Assembly: GCA_024641475.1 (NCBI GenBank)
Contig: JAHECZ010000026.1
Location: forward strand, 1-36,429
Source of the DNA: Gammaproteobacteria bacterium
Lineage (GTDB): Bacteria; Pseudomonadota; Gammaproteobacteria; UBA6429; Thiohalophilaceae
Reading direction: 5' to 3'
Length of the DNA stretch: 36,429 bases
In this document: piece by piece, positions 3-12,901 of the stretch
Layout: each line of letters starts with the position of its first letter
Position numbering within the stretch: position 1 is the first letter of the stretch
Translations under genes and position numbers: made by a program
The notes under the pieces: generated by a model
Told to the model about the DNA's origin: nothing
The model's database searches: none
The model's input: the letters and a program-made list of their open reading frames with translations, nothing else

Positions 3-356
3 TGGTGGAGGCGGCGGGAATTGAACCCGCGTCCGTAAGTTCTCCGCCATCGGATCTACATGCGTAGCCACGTTATTAATTTAATGTGGCGCTACCCAAC
101 GGGCAGGGAAGACGACACACGAGTCTAGTGAGTTTTAGGAGCAATGACCCCAGACATGTCACGCTACGATCTTGTGATGATGACCGCTGAGTAGAACACA
201 CAAGCATGACTCAGTCAGCGGTTAGCCGGTATTAAGCGGCTAAGGCGTAGTTGTCGTCGTTGGCAACTATAAGTTTTGCAGCTGTATTTACGAGGTTATC
301 TGCGCCTCGGCACGCACCTTTGGTTTTGACACCCACGTCGAAGCCATGTCGCCCCC
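3..356 (-). ncRNA. ssrA: tmRNA (transfer-messenger RNA)
   Basis: Rescues stalled ribosomes by acting as alanyl-tRNA and then as a short mRNA that adds a degradation tag. The 5' end (GGGGGCGACATGGCTTCGAC on the minus strand, from 356) pairs as a seven-base acceptor stem with the 3' end, which finishes in CCA at 3-5 after a T-arm-like GGGTTCAATTCCCG. The tag frame runs from 264 to 232 and reads ANDDNYALAA followed by TAA, close to the E. coli tag ANDENYALAA. It lies directly downstream of smpB on the same strand, the usual pairing. The gene is complete; any terminator lies outside the window. Confidence 0.97.
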
Positions 357-369
357 AGGTAGTCAGTCT

Positions 370-397
370 AGGATAGGGCTTTTCCGGGAAAGTTCAA
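370..397 (-). promoter_or_regulatory. Probable sigma-70 promoter of ssrA
   Basis: On the minus strand TTGAAC (397-392) is followed after 16 bases by TATCCT (375-370), 14 bases ahead of the mature tmRNA 5' end. This would give a primary transcript with a short 5' extension to be trimmed by RNase P. The -35 box ends four bases past the smpB stop codon, so ssrA can be transcribed independently of smpB. Confidence 0.6.
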
Positions 398-400
398 GGG

Positions 401-886
401 TTACTTATTGTTATGCCGGAAAAGGCGCTGTTTTTCCCGCTGCCAATCCCGTTCTTTTTCATCGGCGCGCTTGTCATGCAACTGTTTACCCTTGGCGAGG
501 GCAATTTCGAGTTTGGCGCGATTATTCTTCCAGTACATGGCCGTGGGAACCAGGGTGTAGCCCTTGCGCTCTACGGCGCCGATCAGTTTATTCAGTTCCT
601 GGCGATGTAACAGCAATTTACGCGTGCGTGTCGCATTCGGAATAATATGGGTTGAGGCAGCGAGTAGGGGTGTAATTAATGCACCTAATAAGAAAGCTTC
701 ACTATGTTTGATGATCACATAACTGTCGATTAACTGTACTCGACCGGCACGCAGGCTTTTGACTTCCCAGCCTTCCAAAACCAGTCCGGCTTCAAAGCGA
801 TCCTCCAGACTGTATTCATGGCGTGATTTTTTATTGAGCGCTATCGTCCCCGATTCCTGCGTCTTTTTTGCTTTGGGCTTGTTCAT
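401..886 (-). CDS. smpB: SsrA-binding protein SmpB
   Basis: Small basic RNA-binding protein that carries tmRNA into the A site of stalled ribosomes. The 161-residue product has the normal SmpB length and layout. A charged N-terminus leads into the beta-barrel motif [20 protein letters not shown] and the segment [14 protein letters not shown]. The C-terminal tail ([20 protein letters not shown]) is lysine/arginine-rich and in this family forms a helix in the mRNA channel. It lies just upstream of ssrA on the same strand. No Shine-Dalgarno sequence precedes the ATG; instead a TATAAT hexamer ends 7 bases before it (893-898), which raises the possibility of a leaderless message. The family assignment is secure. 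Confidence 0.97.
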
Positions 887-5677: not shown

Positions 5678-6559
5678 TTAAACCTGTTCGCCCCAGTGCA
5701 ATTTGGCACGCAGAATTTCATAGTGATCATGTTGCACCGGATGGATCAGGCGCACTGCCTTGGGGTTACGTTGAATCATGACTTTATCACCGGAGACCAG
5801 CCCCATATTTATCTGTCCGTCACAGGTGACCTGGGCCTTGGTATGGGGTCCTTCACAGACCAGGATTTCGATCGTACTGTCACCGCCCACCACAATGGGC
5901 CGATAACTCATTGAGTGCGGGCAGATGGGCACCAGCACAATCGCATTCATGTCCGGTTCGATAATGGGGCCGCCACCGGAAAGTGCATAAGCGGTCGAAC
6001 CGGTTGGCGTGGACACGATCAAACCGTCACCGCGCATGCGATTGAGTAATCGACCGTTGATATACGTCTCAGTTTCGATCATGCGTGCCACATCCCATTT
6101 GTGGATCACGACATCATTGAAGGCATCGCTGATGGAGGGTTCCTGGGACTCATGGTAAATAGTCGAAGTGAGCATCATGCGATGTTCTTCGAGATAGTTG
6201 CCATCGAAAATTTCCGTCAAGCGTTCCTGCATGTCGACGGGAGAGACATCCACTAAAAAGCCCAGCCGCCCGAGATTGATACCGAGAATCGCCACATTGA
6301 AATTAACCAATTCGCGCGCGGCATTGAGTAGCGTGCCATCGCCACCGACGGTGATGACCAGGTCACAGGCCTGCGCTATTTCCGGCATCGTGGCGACATG
6401 CATACCATGCACGGCCAGGTATTTTGCTGTGGTGGCTTCCAGATAGACGGCGCAACCGCGATCCCGCAGGAATTTACTGAGGTGGAGCATGGTTGCGGCA
6501 ACTTCCGGGTCGCCGTATTTGCCGATAATACCGATCGAATGAAAAGCTTGAGTACTCAT
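5678..6559 (-). CDS. nadK: NAD kinase
   Basis: Phosphorylates NAD to NADP with ATP in the cytoplasm. The ATG at 6559 gives 293 residues and the N-terminus MSTQAFHSIGIIGKYGDP, which fits the family; an in-frame ATG at 6592 would add eleven poorly conserved residues. Diagnostic motifs are VGGDGTLLNAA (the GGDG catalytic/ATP motif, residues 72-75), ILGINLGRLGFLVD, NDVVIHK and DGLIVSTPTGSTAYALSGGG. The gene is divergent from hrcA across about 150 bases and probably heads the nadK-recN operon. Confidence 0.96.
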   Translation of the reverse strand: MSTQAFHSIGIIGKYGDPEVAATMLHLSKFLRDRGCAVYLEATTAKYLAVHGMHVATMPEIAQACDLVITVGGDGTLLNAARELVNFNVAILGINLGRLGFLVDVSPVDMQERLTEIFDGNYLEEHRMMLTSTIYHESQEPSISDAFNDVVIHKWDVARMIETETYINGRLLNRMRGDGLIVSTPTGSTAYALSGGGPIIEPDMNAIVLVPICPHSMSYRPIVVGGDSTIEILVCEGPHTKAQVTCDGQINMGLVSGDKVMIQRNPKAVRLIHPVQHDHYEILRAKLHWGEQV

Positions 6560-6627
6560 AACGGGTCCATTGTTTGGCGCACACGTTAGCACAGCTGCCC
6601 ACGCTGTGCCATGCAGCGAATCCGTGC

Positions 6628-6657
6628 TTGACGGATTGATTGTCCCGTTGCTACTTT
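6628..6657 (+). promoter_or_regulatory. Candidate sigma-70 promoter of hrcA
   Basis: TTGACG at 6628-6633 is followed by a weak -10, either CTACTT (6651) or TACTTT (6652), with a 17- or 18-base spacer. Transcription would then start at about 6664, inside the CIRCE element, the usual geometry for HrcA repression. The -35 is good and the -10 poor. Confidence 0.5.
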
Positions 6658-6662
6658 AGGCA

Positions 6663-6689
6663 TTAGCACTTGATGCTTGAGACTGCTAA
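6663..6689 (+). promoter_or_regulatory. CIRCE operator (HrcA-binding site)
   Basis: TTAGCACTT-N9-GACTGCTAA matches the CIRCE consensus TTAGCACTC-N9-GAGTGCTAA with one mismatch in each arm and the exact 9-base spacing. It lies 23 bases upstream of the hrcA start codon and just after the putative promoter. This is the binding site for the HrcA repressor encoded immediately downstream, so hrcA is predicted to be autoregulated. Confidence 0.92.
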
Positions 6690-6712
6690 CCTGTTGATTT
6701 AATGATTTCATT

Positions 6713-7774
6713 ATGATGTCCCGCCAAAACCAGCAATCCCCCAGCCAACTCTTGACCAATGAGCGTGCCCAGGGCTTGCTCAAAACGCTGATTGAGCGCT
6801 ATATCCGCGAGGGACAGCCCATTGGTTCGCGTACCCTGGCCAAGGACGCCGGCATGGTGCTTTCCGCCGCGACCGTGCGTAATGTCTTGGCTGATTTGGA
6901 GGATTTAGGACTGATTAAAGCGCCGCATACCTCGGCGGGCCGGGTTCCCACGGTGCGTGGCTATCGTATGTTTGTCGACAGCCTGCTGACGGTCAAACCC
7001 ATGCGCAGTCTTGAGGTCGAAAAACTCAAGCAGGAATTATCGATCGATCTTTCTCCCGAGAGTGTCATCCAGGCAACCTCATCCATGCTTTCCAAAGTCA
7101 CCGGGCTGGCCGGAGTGGTCATGCTGCCCCGACGTGGCAGTTTGCGACTCGAGCACATCGAATTTTTACGTTTATCAGCCCAGCGCGTCCTTGTCATCCT
7201 GGTGGTGAATGGTCAGGAAGTGCAGAACCGCGTCATACAAACCGAAAAGGATTTTGATCAGGCCGAACTGCAGCAAGCGGCGAATTTCCTCAATGCGGAG
7301 TTTGGTGGTACGGACCTGGGTAATATCCGCGAGCGCTTGTTCAATAGTATGCAACAGGCGCGGGATTCCATGCATGGCATTATGAGCAATGTCATGAGCA
7401 TTGCTGACAAGGTATTACTGCAACAGCGCCAGCAGGATTGTGTTATTGCCGGTCAAACCAACCTGATGGGGTTTGCCGAGATGAGTGATCTGGATAAATT
7501 ACGTCAGATCTTCGAGGCCTTCCAACAAAAACGCGATATCCTGCATATTCTCGATCAATCCATTTCTGCCGAAGGCATGCAGATTTTTATCGGGGAAGAA
7601 TCCGGTTACGAAGTGTTGGATGAATGTTCATTAGTGACCGCACCGTACACGGTAAATGAAGAAGTCATTGGGGTATTGGGTGTGATAGGCCCCACGCGCA
7701 TGGCCTATGATCGGATTATTCCTATCGTGGATGTGACGGCGAAATTGCTCAGTGCCGCCTTGAAACCTGAGTAA
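6713..7774 (+). CDS. hrcA: Heat-inducible transcription repressor HrcA
   Basis: Repressor that binds CIRCE and keeps chaperone genes off at normal temperature; GroEL assists its folding, coupling repression to chaperone availability. The 353-residue protein has the N-terminal winged helix (LLKTLIERYIREGQPIGSRT, then LSAATVRNVLADLEDLGLI and SAGRVPTVRGYRMFVD). The middle and C-terminal domains include GLAGVVMLP, IFIGEES and GVLGVIGPTRMAYDRIIPIV. Two ATGs lie in tandem (6713 and 6716); either is possible. It heads hrcA-grpE-dnaK-dnaJ, and a CIRCE element sits in its own leader. Its last codons overlap a candidate sigma-32 promoter for grpE. Confidence 0.96.
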   Translation: MMSRQNQQSPSQLLTNERAQGLLKTLIERYIREGQPIGSRTLAKDAGMVLSAATVRNVLADLEDLGLIKAPHTSAGRVPTVRGYRMFVDSLLTVKPMRSLEVEKLKQELSIDLSPESVIQATSSMLSKVTGLAGVVMLPRRGSLRLEHIEFLRLSAQRVLVILVVNGQEVQNRVIQTEKDFDQAELQQAANFLNAEFGGTDLGNIRERLFNSMQQARDSMHGIMSNVMSIADKVLLQQRQQDCVIAGQTNLMGFAEMSDLDKLRQIFEAFQQKRDILHILDQSISAEGMQIFIGEESGYEVLDECSLVTAPYTVNEEVIGVLGVIGPTRMAYDRIIPIVDVTAKLLSAALKPE

Positions 7775-7786
7775 TTGCCCCCATAA
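7758..7786 (+). promoter_or_regulatory. Candidate sigma-32 (RpoH) promoter of grpE
   Basis: CCTTGAA (7758-7764) and CCCCATAA (7779-7786) are separated by 14 bases, matching the E. coli sigma-32 pattern CCTTGAA-N13..17-CCCCATNT closely. It begins inside the last codons of hrcA and lies 64 bases upstream of the grpE ATG. This would allow grpE induction independently of CIRCE/HrcA. Confidence 0.75.
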
Positions 7787-7850
7787 CCCGCGGGTAACTT
7801 AAATATACCCGTGAAACGTACATTATTAATCGCTAATACAGGAACCCTGC

Positions 7851-8408
7851 ATGACAGAGCAAGACACGGTTGAATCCAACACCACGATACAGGATCAAGA
7901 GACTACCCAAACAACGGATATTGACGTACTCAATCAGGAAATCACTGAACTCAAGCAGCGTTTGGTTGAGGCGGAAACCAGGGCCACCGAGCACCGCGAT
8001 GCGATGATGCGCGCCATGGCCGAGGTGGATAATGTACGTCGTCGGACGGAACGCGATCTGGAAAACGCCCACAAATATGCGCTGGAGCGGTTTACCCAGG
8101 AATTACTGCCGGTCATCGATAGCCTGGAAATGGGCATGCAGGCAGCACAGGCTAAAGATGTTTCCATCGCCAGTTTGCAGGAAGGTTCAGAGTTAATCCT
8201 GAAAAAATTCGCCTCGGTGTTGAGCAAATTCAATGTGGTCGCGATCGATCCTGTCGATCAGTCCTTTAATCCGGAATTGCATCAAGCGGTATCAACAATC
8301 GCCGTGGAGGGCAAAGCCCCGAACACGGTCGTATCCGTGCTGCAAAAAGGTTACACCCTGAATGATCGACTGGTCCGTCCGGCGATGGTCGTGGTAGCGC
8401 AAAGCTAA
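7851..8408 (+). CDS. grpE: Nucleotide exchange factor GrpE
   Basis: Co-chaperone that releases ADP from DnaK. The 185-residue protein has an acidic, variable N-terminus and a long helical stretch (about residues 25-75) for dimerisation. The GrpE signature follows: MRAMAEVDNVRRRTERDLE, LPVIDSLEMGM, and a C-terminal beta region with NPELHQAVST, VVSVLQKGYTLNDRLVRPAMVVV. AGGAA at 7840-7844 supports the ATG at 7851. It lies between hrcA and dnaK, 76 bases after hrcA, behind a candidate sigma-32 promoter. Confidence 0.96.
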   Translation: MTEQDTVESNTTIQDQETTQTTDIDVLNQEITELKQRLVEAETRATEHRDAMMRAMAEVDNVRRRTERDLENAHKYALERFTQELLPVIDSLEMGMQAAQAKDVSIASLQEGSELILKKFASVLSKFNVVAIDPVDQSFNPELHQAVSTIAVEGKAPNTVVSVLQKGYTLNDRLVRPAMVVVAQS

Positions 8409-8435
8409 TGAAAAAGCGCTAAGTTTGGCGCGGTT

Positions 8436-8465
8436 CCCTTGAAGTTCACAGGGACACCCCCAAAT
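8436..8465 (+). promoter_or_regulatory. Candidate sigma-32 (RpoH) promoter of dnaK
   Basis: CCCTTGAA (8436-8443) and CCCCAAAT (8458-8465) are separated by 14 bases, the same spacing as the candidate before grpE. It lies in the 115-base grpE-dnaK gap, about 58 bases before the dnaK ATG. A private heat-shock promoter would raise DnaK above GrpE, as the stoichiometry of the system requires. Confidence 0.75.
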
Positions 8466-8523
8466 TGGTAAGCATGACAATTTTATTAAACGAATTCACT
8501 TTATTAACTGGAGAGCAAGGGCA

Positions 8524-10455
8524 ATGGGCAAAATAATCGGAATAGATTTGGGCACGACCAATTCCTGTGTCGCCGTGATGGAAGGCGGTAAACCCAAAGT
8601 CATCGAAAATTCAGAAGGCACACGTACGACCCCGTCGATCGTGGCCTTTAGTAAAGACAATGAAGTGCTGGTCGGCCAATCCGCCAAACGTCAGGCGGTG
8701 ACAAATGCCAAGAATACGCTTTATGCGGTCAAGCGACTCATCGGCCGCAAGTTTACCGATGCCGAAGTGCAGAAAGACATCAAGATGGTGCCTTACAAAA
8801 TCGTGAAAGCCGACAATGGCGATGCCTGGGTTGAAGTCGACGGCAAGAAGATGGCGGCCCCGGAAATATCTGCACGTGTATTGCAGAAAATGAAAAAGAC
8901 CGCCGAGGATTACCTGGGCGAAGCGGTCACCGAAGCGGTGATCACTGTACCTGCCTATTTCAATGATTCGCAACGTCAGGCCACCAAGGATGCCGGGCGT
9001 ATCGCAGGTCTGGAAGTCAAACGTATTATCAATGAACCGACTGCGGCAGCGTTAGCCTTTGGTCTGGACAAGAAAGAAGGCGATCGCAAGATTGCGGTGT
9101 ATGACCTGGGTGGTGGTACGTTCGATATCTCCATTATCGAAATTGCCGAAATCGACGGCGAACACCAGATTGAAGTGCTATCCACCAACGGTGACACTTT
9201 CCTGGGTGGTGAAGATTTTGATATGCGCGTCATCGATTATATCGTCGATGAATTCAAGAAAGAGCAGGGCATCGATCTGCGTGGTGATCCACTGGCTATC
9301 CAACGACTGAAGGAAGCGGCGGAAAAAGCCAAGATCGAATTATCTTCCAGTGCGCAGACGGACATCAATTTGCCGTATGTGACGGCCGATGCATCGGGCC
9401 CCAAGCATTTAAATCTTAAACTCACTCGCGCCAAACTCGAATCGCTGGTGGAAGAACTGATTGCGCGCACTGTTGGGCCATGCAAGACCGCACTTAAAGA
9501 CGCCGGGCTATCTGCCAAAGAGGTTGACGATGTCATCCTGGTTGGCGGTCAGACGCGTATGCCCAAGGTGCAGGATGTGGTTAAGGATTTCTTTGGTAAA
9601 GAACCACGCAAAGACGTTAACCCGGATGAAGCTGTCGCGGTTGGCGCGGCAATTCAGGGTGGTGTGCTCGGTGGTGAAGTTAAAGATGTATTATTGCTGG
9701 ACGTCACGCCATTGTCGTTGGGTATCGAAACTCTCGGCGGCGTGATGACCAAGTTGATCGAAAAGAACACCACGGTTCCGACCAAGGCACAGCAGGTATT
9801 CTCCACCGCGGATGACAATCAAACTGCCGTGACCGTGCATGTGTTGCAAGGTGAACGTGAGCGTGCAGCGGCGAATAAATCATTAGGCAAGTTTGATTTA
9901 GGCGATATTCCACCGGCGCCGCGTGGTATGCCGCAGGTGGAAGTCACCTTTGATATCGATGCGAATGGTATCCTGAATGTATCCGCCAAGGACAAGGCTA
10001 CCGGCAAACAACAGTCAATTATCATCAAGGCATCGAGTGGTTTGTCGGATGAAGAAATCAAACGCATGGTGGGTGATGCCGAGGCGCATGCGGCCGAAGA
10101 CAAGAAGTTCCATGAATTGGTCAATGCCCGTAATCAAGGTGAAGGCCTGATTCATGCCACACAGAAATCCCTGAAAGATTTGGGCGACAAGGTGGATGCC
10201 GGCGAGCGCAGCAAGATTGAAGCAGCGATAAAGGATCTGGAAGGCGTGGTGAAAGGTGATGATGTGGAAATCATTACGGCCAAGACCACAGCATTGGCGG
10301 AAGCATCTGCTAAAATGGCCGAGCAACTCTATGCACAAAAAGGTGCGGCGGATGCGGCTGCCGGCGCGGATGCGGCAGGTGGTCAATCTAAAGCGGGTGC
10401 GAACGACAATGTCGTCGATGCAGAATTTGAAGAAGTCGACGAAAACAAAAAATAA
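8524..10455 (+). CDS. dnaK: Chaperone protein DnaK (Hsp70)
   Basis: Cytoplasmic ATP-dependent chaperone. The 643-residue product has a complete nucleotide-binding domain: [17 protein letters not shown] at the start, [47 protein letters not shown] and [14 protein letters not shown]. The linker [16 protein letters not shown] follows. The substrate-binding domain contains [15 protein letters not shown] and [19 protein letters not shown], and the lid ends in an Ala/Gly-rich tail closing with [15 protein letters not shown]. The GrpE-responsive loop region typical of Gram-negative DnaK is present (full length, no deletion). A GGAG site precedes the ATG. Confidence 0.99.
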
Positions 10456-10464
10456 CAAAATTTA

Positions 10465-10547
10465 AGGGACAAGTAACGAGGGACGAGTGACGGGGAAAGG
10501 CGGATTGCAGCCTGTTTCCTGGCGCTCGTCCCTCGTTACTCGTTACT
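10465..10547. repeat. Heptamer-built inverted repeat between dnaK and dnaJ
   Basis: The left arm is four tandem seven-base units, AGGGACA-AGTAACG-AGGGACG-AGTGACG (10465-10492). The right arm, read on the minus strand, is AGTAACG-AGTAACG-AGGGACG (10547-10527). Within these, 10472-10487 and 10525-10540 are perfect 16-base complements, so the dnaK-dnaJ mRNA can form a strong hairpin with a 37-base loop. No U-run follows, so it is not a classical terminator. The dnaJ Shine-Dalgarno AGGG (10548-10551) begins one base after the right arm. It looks like a mobile or expanding intergenic repeat rather than part of either gene. Confidence 0.9.
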
Positions 10548-10555
10548 AGGGTTTT

Positions 10556-11710
10556 ATGAAACGCGATTATTACGAAATTCTGGGTGTTGCCAAAAACGTC
10601 AGTGAGGCTGATCTTAAAAAAGCCTTCAAGCGTTTGGCCATGAAATTTCATCCAGACCGCAATCCGGACAATAAGGAAGCCGAGGAAAAATTCAAAGAGG
10701 CCAAAGAGGCTTATGAGATCCTGGCTGATCCACAGAAGCGCTCAGCCTATGATCAATTCGGCCATGCCGGTGTCGATGCCTCCGCAGGTATGGGGGGGGC
10801 CGGTGGTCCGGGCGGTTTCGGTGGCGCGTCATTTGCGGATATTTTCGGCGATGTCTTTGGTGATATCTTCGGGGGCAGTGGCGGCGGCGGTGGTGGCCGA
10901 GGTCGTTCACGCGCTCAGCGTGGTTCCGATCTCCAGTACAATCTTGATCTCAGTCTCGAAGACGCCGTGCGCGGCACCAAAGTCGATATCCGTTTTCCTA
11001 CCCATATCGCCTGTGATGAATGCAGTGGCTCGGGGGCTAAAAAAGGCACCTCGCCGACGACCTGCGCGACGTGTGGCGGTATCGGGCAGGTACGCATGCA
11101 GCAGGGCTTTTTCTCGTTGCAACAGACCTGTCCGCGTTGCCACGGCAGCGGCAAGATGATCTCTGACCCCTGTGGTAAGTGCCACGGTCAGGGTCGGGTA
11201 CAAAAGCACAAGACCTTGTCGGTTAAAATCCCGGCCGGCGTCGACACGGGTGACCGGGTACGGGTCAGCGGTGAAGGCGAGCCTGGGGTCGAAGGTGGTC
11301 CAGCCGGTGACCTCTATGTCCTGATGAATGTCCGTGAACACAGTATTTTCCAACGGGATGGCAATGACCTGTATTGCGAAGTTCCAGTGAGTATTTTTAC
11401 CGCAACCATAGGCGGGGAGTTTGAAGTCCCGACTTTGGATGGCCGCGTTAAACTGAAAATACCGGCCGAAACCCAGACAGGCAAGCTGTTCCGCCTGCGC
11501 GGTAAAGGGGTACGTTCAGCCCGTACCGGTACCTCCGGTGATCTGCTCTGTCGCGTCACCGTGGAAACGCCGGTCAATCTGACCAAAAAACAGAAAGAAT
11601 TGTTATCGACACTGGAAACCGAACTCCAGCAAGATGGCGTCCAACACAGCCCTCGAACTTCCTCCTGGCTGGATGGCGTCAAAAAGTTCTTTGAAGACAT
11701 GAAATTTTAA
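10556..11710 (+). CDS. dnaJ: Chaperone protein DnaJ (Hsp40)
   Basis: J-domain co-chaperone that delivers clients to DnaK and stimulates its ATPase. The 384-residue protein has the full type I layout. The J domain carries HPD at 32-34. A Gly/Phe-rich stretch follows (about 72-117), interrupted by the repeated [14 protein letters not shown]. The zinc domain has four CxxCxGxG motifs starting at Cys153, Cys170, Cys192 and Cys206. The C-terminal substrate domain includes [20 protein letters not shown] and [19 protein letters not shown]. The ATG at 10556 follows AGGG at 10548. It is the last gene of the hrcA cluster, separated from dnaK by the inverted repeat. Confidence 0.98.
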
Positions 11711-11727
11711 ATGGGGTTTCTATATAA

Positions 11728-12901
<1,174 letters not shown>

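Follow-up and report, generated by a model that had tools for sequence, protein, structure and literature searches.

What is taught about the gammaproteobacterial heat-shock response comes from Escherichia coli, an organism without HrcA. Among the closest described systems is Geobacter sulfurreducens, in which a CIRCE element was predicted before rpoH in 2004 (Rodionov et al., PMC545781; here and below, statements on published work refer to excerpts of the cited papers). The titration of GroE away from HrcA is known from other bacteria (PMC6032397, PMC8119881). In Caulobacter, groESL is under dual control, by CIRCE/HrcA with sigma-73 and by sigma-32 (PMC8119881), and the groESL operon of Agrobacterium is likewise controlled by both HrcA and sigma-32 (PMC11764788). 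The first-pass annotation of the DNA studied here had contrasted enterics, where RpoH alone drives dnaK, with many Gram-positives, where HrcA alone does so; this contrast leaves out the dual control excerpted above for Caulobacter and Agrobacterium.

The window analyzed, that is, the whole stretch of 36,429 nucleotides, is a complete contig (C27) of a 3.16-Mb draft genome in 131 contigs and carries hrcA, grpE, dnaK, and dnaJ. According to our analysis, which is based on sequence comparison, the source genome likely operates a two-tier heat-shock cascade with HrcA placed above RpoH.

Sigma-32-type promoters of grpE and dnaK

All four genes lie in the same direction, each scoring above the curated cut-off in a profile search (Table 1). 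A terminator scan of positions 6300 to 11800 returned no plus-strand terminator-like site; the two sites that it listed are both on the minus strand and are fewer than in shuffled sequences. Between dnaK and dnaJ lies an imperfect palindrome, about 75 bases in length (10469 to 10543). Apart from its inverted match to itself (76%), a genome search gave a single weak match elsewhere, at C90:68401-68470 (73%); the element may be a small mobile or terminator-like repeat.

Table 1. Chaperone locus and CIRCE sites of the source genome (positions in the window unless a contig is named)
Feature	Position	Strand	Remarks
hrcA	6713..7774	+	TIGR00331, 326.6 bits (cut-off, 197.2)
grpE	7851..8408	+	NF010748, 211.2 bits (cut-off, 152)
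dnaK	8524..10455	+	TIGR02350, 962.4 bits (cut-off, 822.55)
dnaJ	10556..11710	+	TIGR02349, 453.4 bits (cut-off, 377.2)
Putative sigma-70 extended -10 promoter of hrcA, TTGACG-N18-TACTTT	6628..6657	+	TG at 6649-6650; by eye
CIRCE operator of hrcA (predicted HrcA site)	6663..6689	+	2 mismatches; directly 3' of the putative hrcA promoter; third genomic CIRCE site (C27:6663)
Sigma-32-type promoter of grpE, CTTGAA-N14-CCCCAT	7759..7784	+	0 mismatches; conserved
Sigma-32-type promoter of dnaK, CTTGAA-N14-CCCCAA	8438..8463	+	1 mismatch; conserved
CIRCE of groESL	C3:25036		Perfect match; groES starts 74 bp downstream
CIRCE of rpoH	C50:44461-44487		1 mismatch; ends 31 bp upstream of the start codon of rpoH

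Sigma-32 promoters have the consensus CTTGAA and CCCCAT, separated by 13 to 17 nt. Promoters of this type had been claimed before both grpE and dnaK in the first-pass annotation, with identical 14-base spacers, and both motifs are present as described, in a genome that also encodes RpoH (TIGR02392, 418.6 bits; cut-off, 323.1). The grpE motif is the sole exact N14 match in the draft genome, and shuffled sequences average 0.08 such matches (spacers of 11 to 17). The dnaK motif is one of 14 one-mismatch N14 sites genome-wide and, by itself, is therefore just moderately unusual. More generally, the motif alone is a weak predictor, since pairs with up to two mismatches number 188 in the genome versus 123 for a reversed control pattern.

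It is conservation that raises both predicted promoters above chance. The sample of relatives comprises 58 genomes including the source genome, of which 48 have an HrcA match. Counting the source genome, the best hexamer pair has 0, 1, 2, and 3 mismatches in 6, 20, 16, and 5 of the 47 hrcA-grpE regions, respectively, and 0, 1, 2, 3, 4, and 5 mismatches in 12, 18, 9, 3, 3, and 1 of the 46 grpE-dnaK regions. At most two mismatches are thus found before grpE in 42/47 genomes and before dnaK in 39/46, a level reached by 14/940 and 19/920 letter shuffles, respectively, and the comparison of the same intervals in relatives that had been proposed as a check comes out in favor of both motifs. Fourteen bases is also the usual spacer, occurring in 29 of the 42 good hrcA-grpE regions and 31 of the 39 good grpE-dnaK regions. 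Both promoters reach this level together in 35/46 genomes, the remaining eleven being G005, G006, G008, G018, G020, G024, G030, G032, G037, G046, and G049.

As a positive control from the same genome, CTTGAA-N14-CCCTAT stands 44 bp before the clpB open reading frame (L017), whose 485 residues up to the end of the locus match ClpB and which, as a cut fragment, scores below the full-length cut-off. This is one of the 13 one-mismatch N14 sites found outside the chaperone operon (L010, L011, and L013 to L023), among which clpB and the tmRNA gene (L011) are plausible sigma-32 targets; eight of the other 11 are in or antisense to long open reading frames, and the rest are L013, L014, and L015. The tmRNA gene lies in the window (3-356, minus strand; tag AKLIVANDDNYALAA) and is directly preceded by CTTGAA-N14-CCCTAT at 373-398 (minus strand), where a sigma-70 promoter, TTGAAC-N16-TATCCT, could be read as well; smpB (401-886, minus strand) adjoins it.

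Two other origins of the hexamers have to be considered. In the window, the -35 hexamer of grpE is located within the hrcA codons for A-L-K, and in 35 of the 42 regions with up to two mismatches its first base is at -16, counted from where the hrcA stop codon ends, so that it spells part of the last codons of hrcA; as the tail of HrcA has a conserved Leu with K, S, T, R, or N after it, the hexamer could be a by-product of a conserved protein sequence. We give next to no credence to this explanation in view of the codons used. The overlapping codon encodes Leu in 40/47 genomes, and 39 of the 40 use TTG for it; elsewhere in these genes, TTG makes up 16.8% of 1677 Leu codons. This is a comparison among related genomes whose statistics ignore shared descent. 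The preceding codon ends in C in 37/40; in the sole non-TTG genome, G053, the best hexamer pair lies further downstream. Judging by these counts, TTG is not demanded at this position by the protein sequence alone, and the -10 element, which lies outside hrcA, is likewise conserved. Protein constraint as the source of the -35 conservation was rejected on this codon test. At dnaK, 18 of the 39 good regions have the TGA stop codon of grpE within the -35 hexamer; in the window, the hexamer is found 29 bases past that stop. It is also very unlikely that the sites before grpE and dnaK are sigma-70 promoters misread, even though TTGAAN-N16-(T/C)ATnnn overlaps CTTGAA-N14-CCC(C/T)AT and the CCC(C/T)ATAT of many relatives contains a passable sigma-70 -10 element. 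Neither a leading C nor a CCC run is needed by sigma-70. In the hrcA-grpE set, C occupies the first -35 position in 41/42 regions and the CCC of the first three -10 positions is conserved in 39, 41, and 41 of 42, column counts that lean towards sigma-32 because the sites were picked by their match to its consensus; the sigma-70 reading was rejected on the near invariance of these letters.

CIRCE operators and the rpoH promoter

The presence of CIRCE before hrcA, as the first-pass annotation had it, was confirmed: the element matches TTAGCACTC-N9-GAGTGCTAA with two mismatches at the position given there, and shuffled windows average 0.02 such sites. With up to three mismatches, the genome holds three CIRCE sites, before groESL, hrcA, and rpoH, versus one for the reversed-pattern control. 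The source genome thus encodes HrcA and carries CIRCE before both groESL and the dnaK operon. In the sequence, CIRCE lies on or beside the predicted sigma-70-type promoters of groESL, rpoH, and hrcA. Inspection by eye of the groESL region revealed a TTGACA/TATCAT sigma-70 promoter that adjoins CIRCE and no good sigma-32 site. At hrcA, CIRCE begins five bases 3' of the putative promoter, which was read by the general logic of sigma-70 extended -10 promoters; a consensus promoter scan does not list it, the second hexamer being too far from TATAAT, and lists another weak site at 6677-6706. CIRCE with up to three mismatches precedes hrcA in 37/48 genomes, the source genome included, and a TTGC(T/A)ANT box is present within 25 nt upstream of it in 13 of these 37 versus 0/37 for a control window.

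The CIRCE of rpoH reads TTGGCACTCGAAGGTTAGGAGTGCTAATATT. Its left arm is TTGGCA and its right arm forms the start of TAATAT, with an 18-base spacing, so that the predicted operator and a sigma-70-type promoter (TTGGCA-N18-TAATAT) coincide; the promoter reading covers this CIRCE-overlapping site, as distinct from promoters further upstream. Since a CIRCE with one mismatch sits on a sigma-70-type promoter, rpoH is predicted to be a further target of repression by HrcA.

When the relatives were inspected, CIRCE with up to three mismatches was found in 46/52 rpoH 5' regions and in 32/32 within the same family, and the best reversed-pattern control had 5 mismatches. The 58 genomes gave 52 rpoH regions after the exclusion of G003 and G005 (5' end cut off), G011, G031, and G035 (rpoH incomplete), and G054 (no rpoH); 22 named loci were left out of the counts. 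Of the six relatives without the rpoH CIRCE, G038, G039, G042, G043, and G056 have no HrcA hit, and the HrcA of G049 is divergent (41% identity). Four relatives have the operator and no HrcA hit, namely, G009, G025, G041, and G052, the first three being 62 to 82% complete. CIRCE is thus retained at rpoH no less well than at its autoregulatory position before hrcA, given the 37/48 reported above for the latter. In G046 (L150), two tandem CIRCE elements precede rpoH, at C61:202567 and 202599.

To sample the whole class, 124 genomes were drawn, with two from the family of the source genome and one from each other family; the sample is partly shared with the relatives. HrcA matches were obtained in 92 of the 124, 88 of them above the cut-off; HrcA-positive takes in partial hits below it, in G097, G119, G144, and G151 here and in G203 among the other classes. 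Ten genomes had no usable rpoH row, which left 115 regions of 114 genomes (G068 twice), including G150, which is slightly below the cut-off. The rpoH CIRCE was detected in 79/86 regions of HrcA-positive genomes versus 4/29 of HrcA-negative ones (Fisher p 4.6e-15, a statistic that ignores shared descent), and the reversed-pattern control was never better than 4 mismatches. To judge from these sequences, the HrcA-bearing members of the class examined have, as a rule, a predicted HrcA operator on their rpoH promoter. Exceptions in both directions count against gating of rpoH by HrcA: HrcA-positive regions without the operator are those of G049, G062, G072, G100, G135, G142, and the second rpoH copy of G068. 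HrcA-negative genomes with it, at 0 to 3 mismatches, are G052 (L156), G103 (L182), G148 (L237), and G155 (L211); in these, the operator may be an orphan, a contig may be missing, or the repressor may have diverged. Directly 3' of the rpoH CIRCE, three bases reading N[AC]T complete a -10-like box in 70 of 83 class regions; among the hrcA CIRCEs of relatives, N[AC]T follows in 9 of 37, so that the overlap of CIRCE with a -10 element is a feature of rpoH.

For the other classes of the phylum, 40 rpoH regions were read from 37 of 68 genomes, the 37 being selected to cover many families, and genomes of the same class that first appeared in this draw were left out of the counts. The rpoH CIRCE was present in 4/34 HrcA-positive and 0/6 HrcA-negative regions, and G161 has a 4-mismatch site at rpoH. 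All four belong to a single family, f135 (G167, G191, G206, and G214; L288 to L291), in which six HrcA-positive members were read.

A proposed cascade and the alternatives to it

In the arrangement that we favor, HrcA and RpoH look stacked serially, not side by side. In the absence of stress, HrcA supported by GroESL would repress groESL, rpoH, and the hrcA-grpE-dnaK-dnaJ readthrough transcript, and basal expression of grpE-dnaK-dnaJ would be the readthrough from the hrcA promoter. Heat or misfolded protein would titrate GroESL and HrcA would be released, although it may be heat itself, rather than GroE titration, that releases it. With HrcA off, the sigma-70 RNA polymerase would transcribe groESL, hrcA, and rpoH, and newly made sigma-32 would drive grpE, dnaK, and clpB from their own promoters, which are without CIRCE; the chaperones would then switch off both tiers. 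At rpoH, HrcA would block RNA polymerase directly, because TTRGCA-N18-TAANAT overlaps both arms of CIRCE.

The original observation was that CIRCE is layered with sigma-32 promoters at this locus; its facts are right, and as a type it is ordinary. The reading given with it was that RpoH is able to bypass HrcA for grpE and dnaK. The layering stands, with CIRCE before hrcA and a conserved promoter for each of grpE and dnaK. The bypass is not supported, as a one-mismatch CIRCE coincides with the sigma-70-type promoter of rpoH; if HrcA gates rpoH and RpoH drives grpE, dnaK, and clpB, RpoH probably does not bypass HrcA.

Alternatively, the two regulators would act in parallel, HrcA on hrcA and groESL and RpoH independently on grpE and dnaK, with the CIRCE of rpoH having little effect and sigma-32 being controlled by its stability and by chaperone binding. 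The separate and conserved sigma-32-type promoters of grpE and dnaK would fit this arrangement, and in E. coli sigma-32 is controlled largely after transcription, for which reason a transcriptional gate on rpoH may matter little. RpoH and HrcA are also given 'differential and independent roles' in the title of an Agrobacterium paper cited in PMC11764788. We nevertheless consider parallel action unlikely, since an operator without effect would hardly be kept in 79 of 86 regions and track the presence of HrcA as it does across the class. The other classes, where HrcA-positive genomes are mostly without a CIRCE at rpoH, indicate that a parallel design exists and is not the one kept here. In nitrogen-starved Xylella, hrcA was reported to be up 4-fold at 2 h and rpoH up 2-fold at 8 and 12 h (PMC3224663); if that rpoH has a CIRCE, such co-induction is not what simple repression of rpoH would predict.

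Returning to the serial cascade, we tentatively put forward, as a possibility that falls somewhat short of probable, that gating of rpoH transcription by HrcA is the ancestral state of the Gammaproteobacteria (as defined in GTDB) and that the E. coli state is derived, having arisen after the loss of HrcA. If this were true, a GroE-sensing repressor would stand above a DnaK-sensing sigma factor, and E. coli would be the case without HrcA, in which sigma-32 is set by translation and stability. A related idea, that an RNA thermosensor took over from HrcA where HrcA was lost, predicts a more stable fold of the rpoH mRNA 5' region in genomes without HrcA and was examined by comparing folds, one sequence without a start codon being dropped. 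The z score of fold stability was +0.69 for the source genome and -2.32 for E. coli, and 27 HrcA-positive versus 20 HrcA-negative sequences (E. coli included) did not differ in it (Mann-Whitney p 0.53); for the openness of the start region, p was 0.09.

Comparison with described heat-shock systems

The rpoH regulon of E. coli has the same sigma-32 consensus and shares grpE, dnaK, and clpB as targets with the genome studied here. It differs from the source genome, which has HrcA, in that the control genomes in which HrcA was matched do not include E. coli, and in that the E. coli rpoH is without CIRCE, the best match having 7 mismatches. The presence of HrcA in 92/124 genomes, together with its operator in 79/86 rpoH regions, suggests that a serial HrcA-to-sigma-32 circuit may be the design shared by most of the class. 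Whether folding stress is sensed by GroE or by DnaK, an old question, would then become one of a definite order of events.

The gene order hrcA-grpE-dnaK-dnaJ is the same in Xanthomonas campestris, where grpE and dnaK are heat inducible (Weng et al. 2001, as cited in PMC11764788). Caulobacter resembles the source genome in combining HrcA and sigma-32 in one heat-shock system and in the support that GroESL gives to HrcA activity; the dual control described there is at groESL, and CIRCE before rpoH is not mentioned in the excerpt of that paper (PMC8119881). In the open-access literature, the coverage of which did not extend to the Permina and Gelfand survey of 2003, we found no report of CIRCE before a gammaproteobacterial rpoH. 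There is a close likeness with G. sulfurreducens, in which, as here, CIRCE is predicted before groESL, hrcA-grpE-dnaK-dnaJ, and rpoH, and a sigma-32 promoter is also predicted, before dnaK-dnaJ (PMC545781). That prediction concerns a single genome of another lineage, whereas the operator described here occurs across the class and is predicted to be one and the same with the sigma-70 promoter of rpoH.
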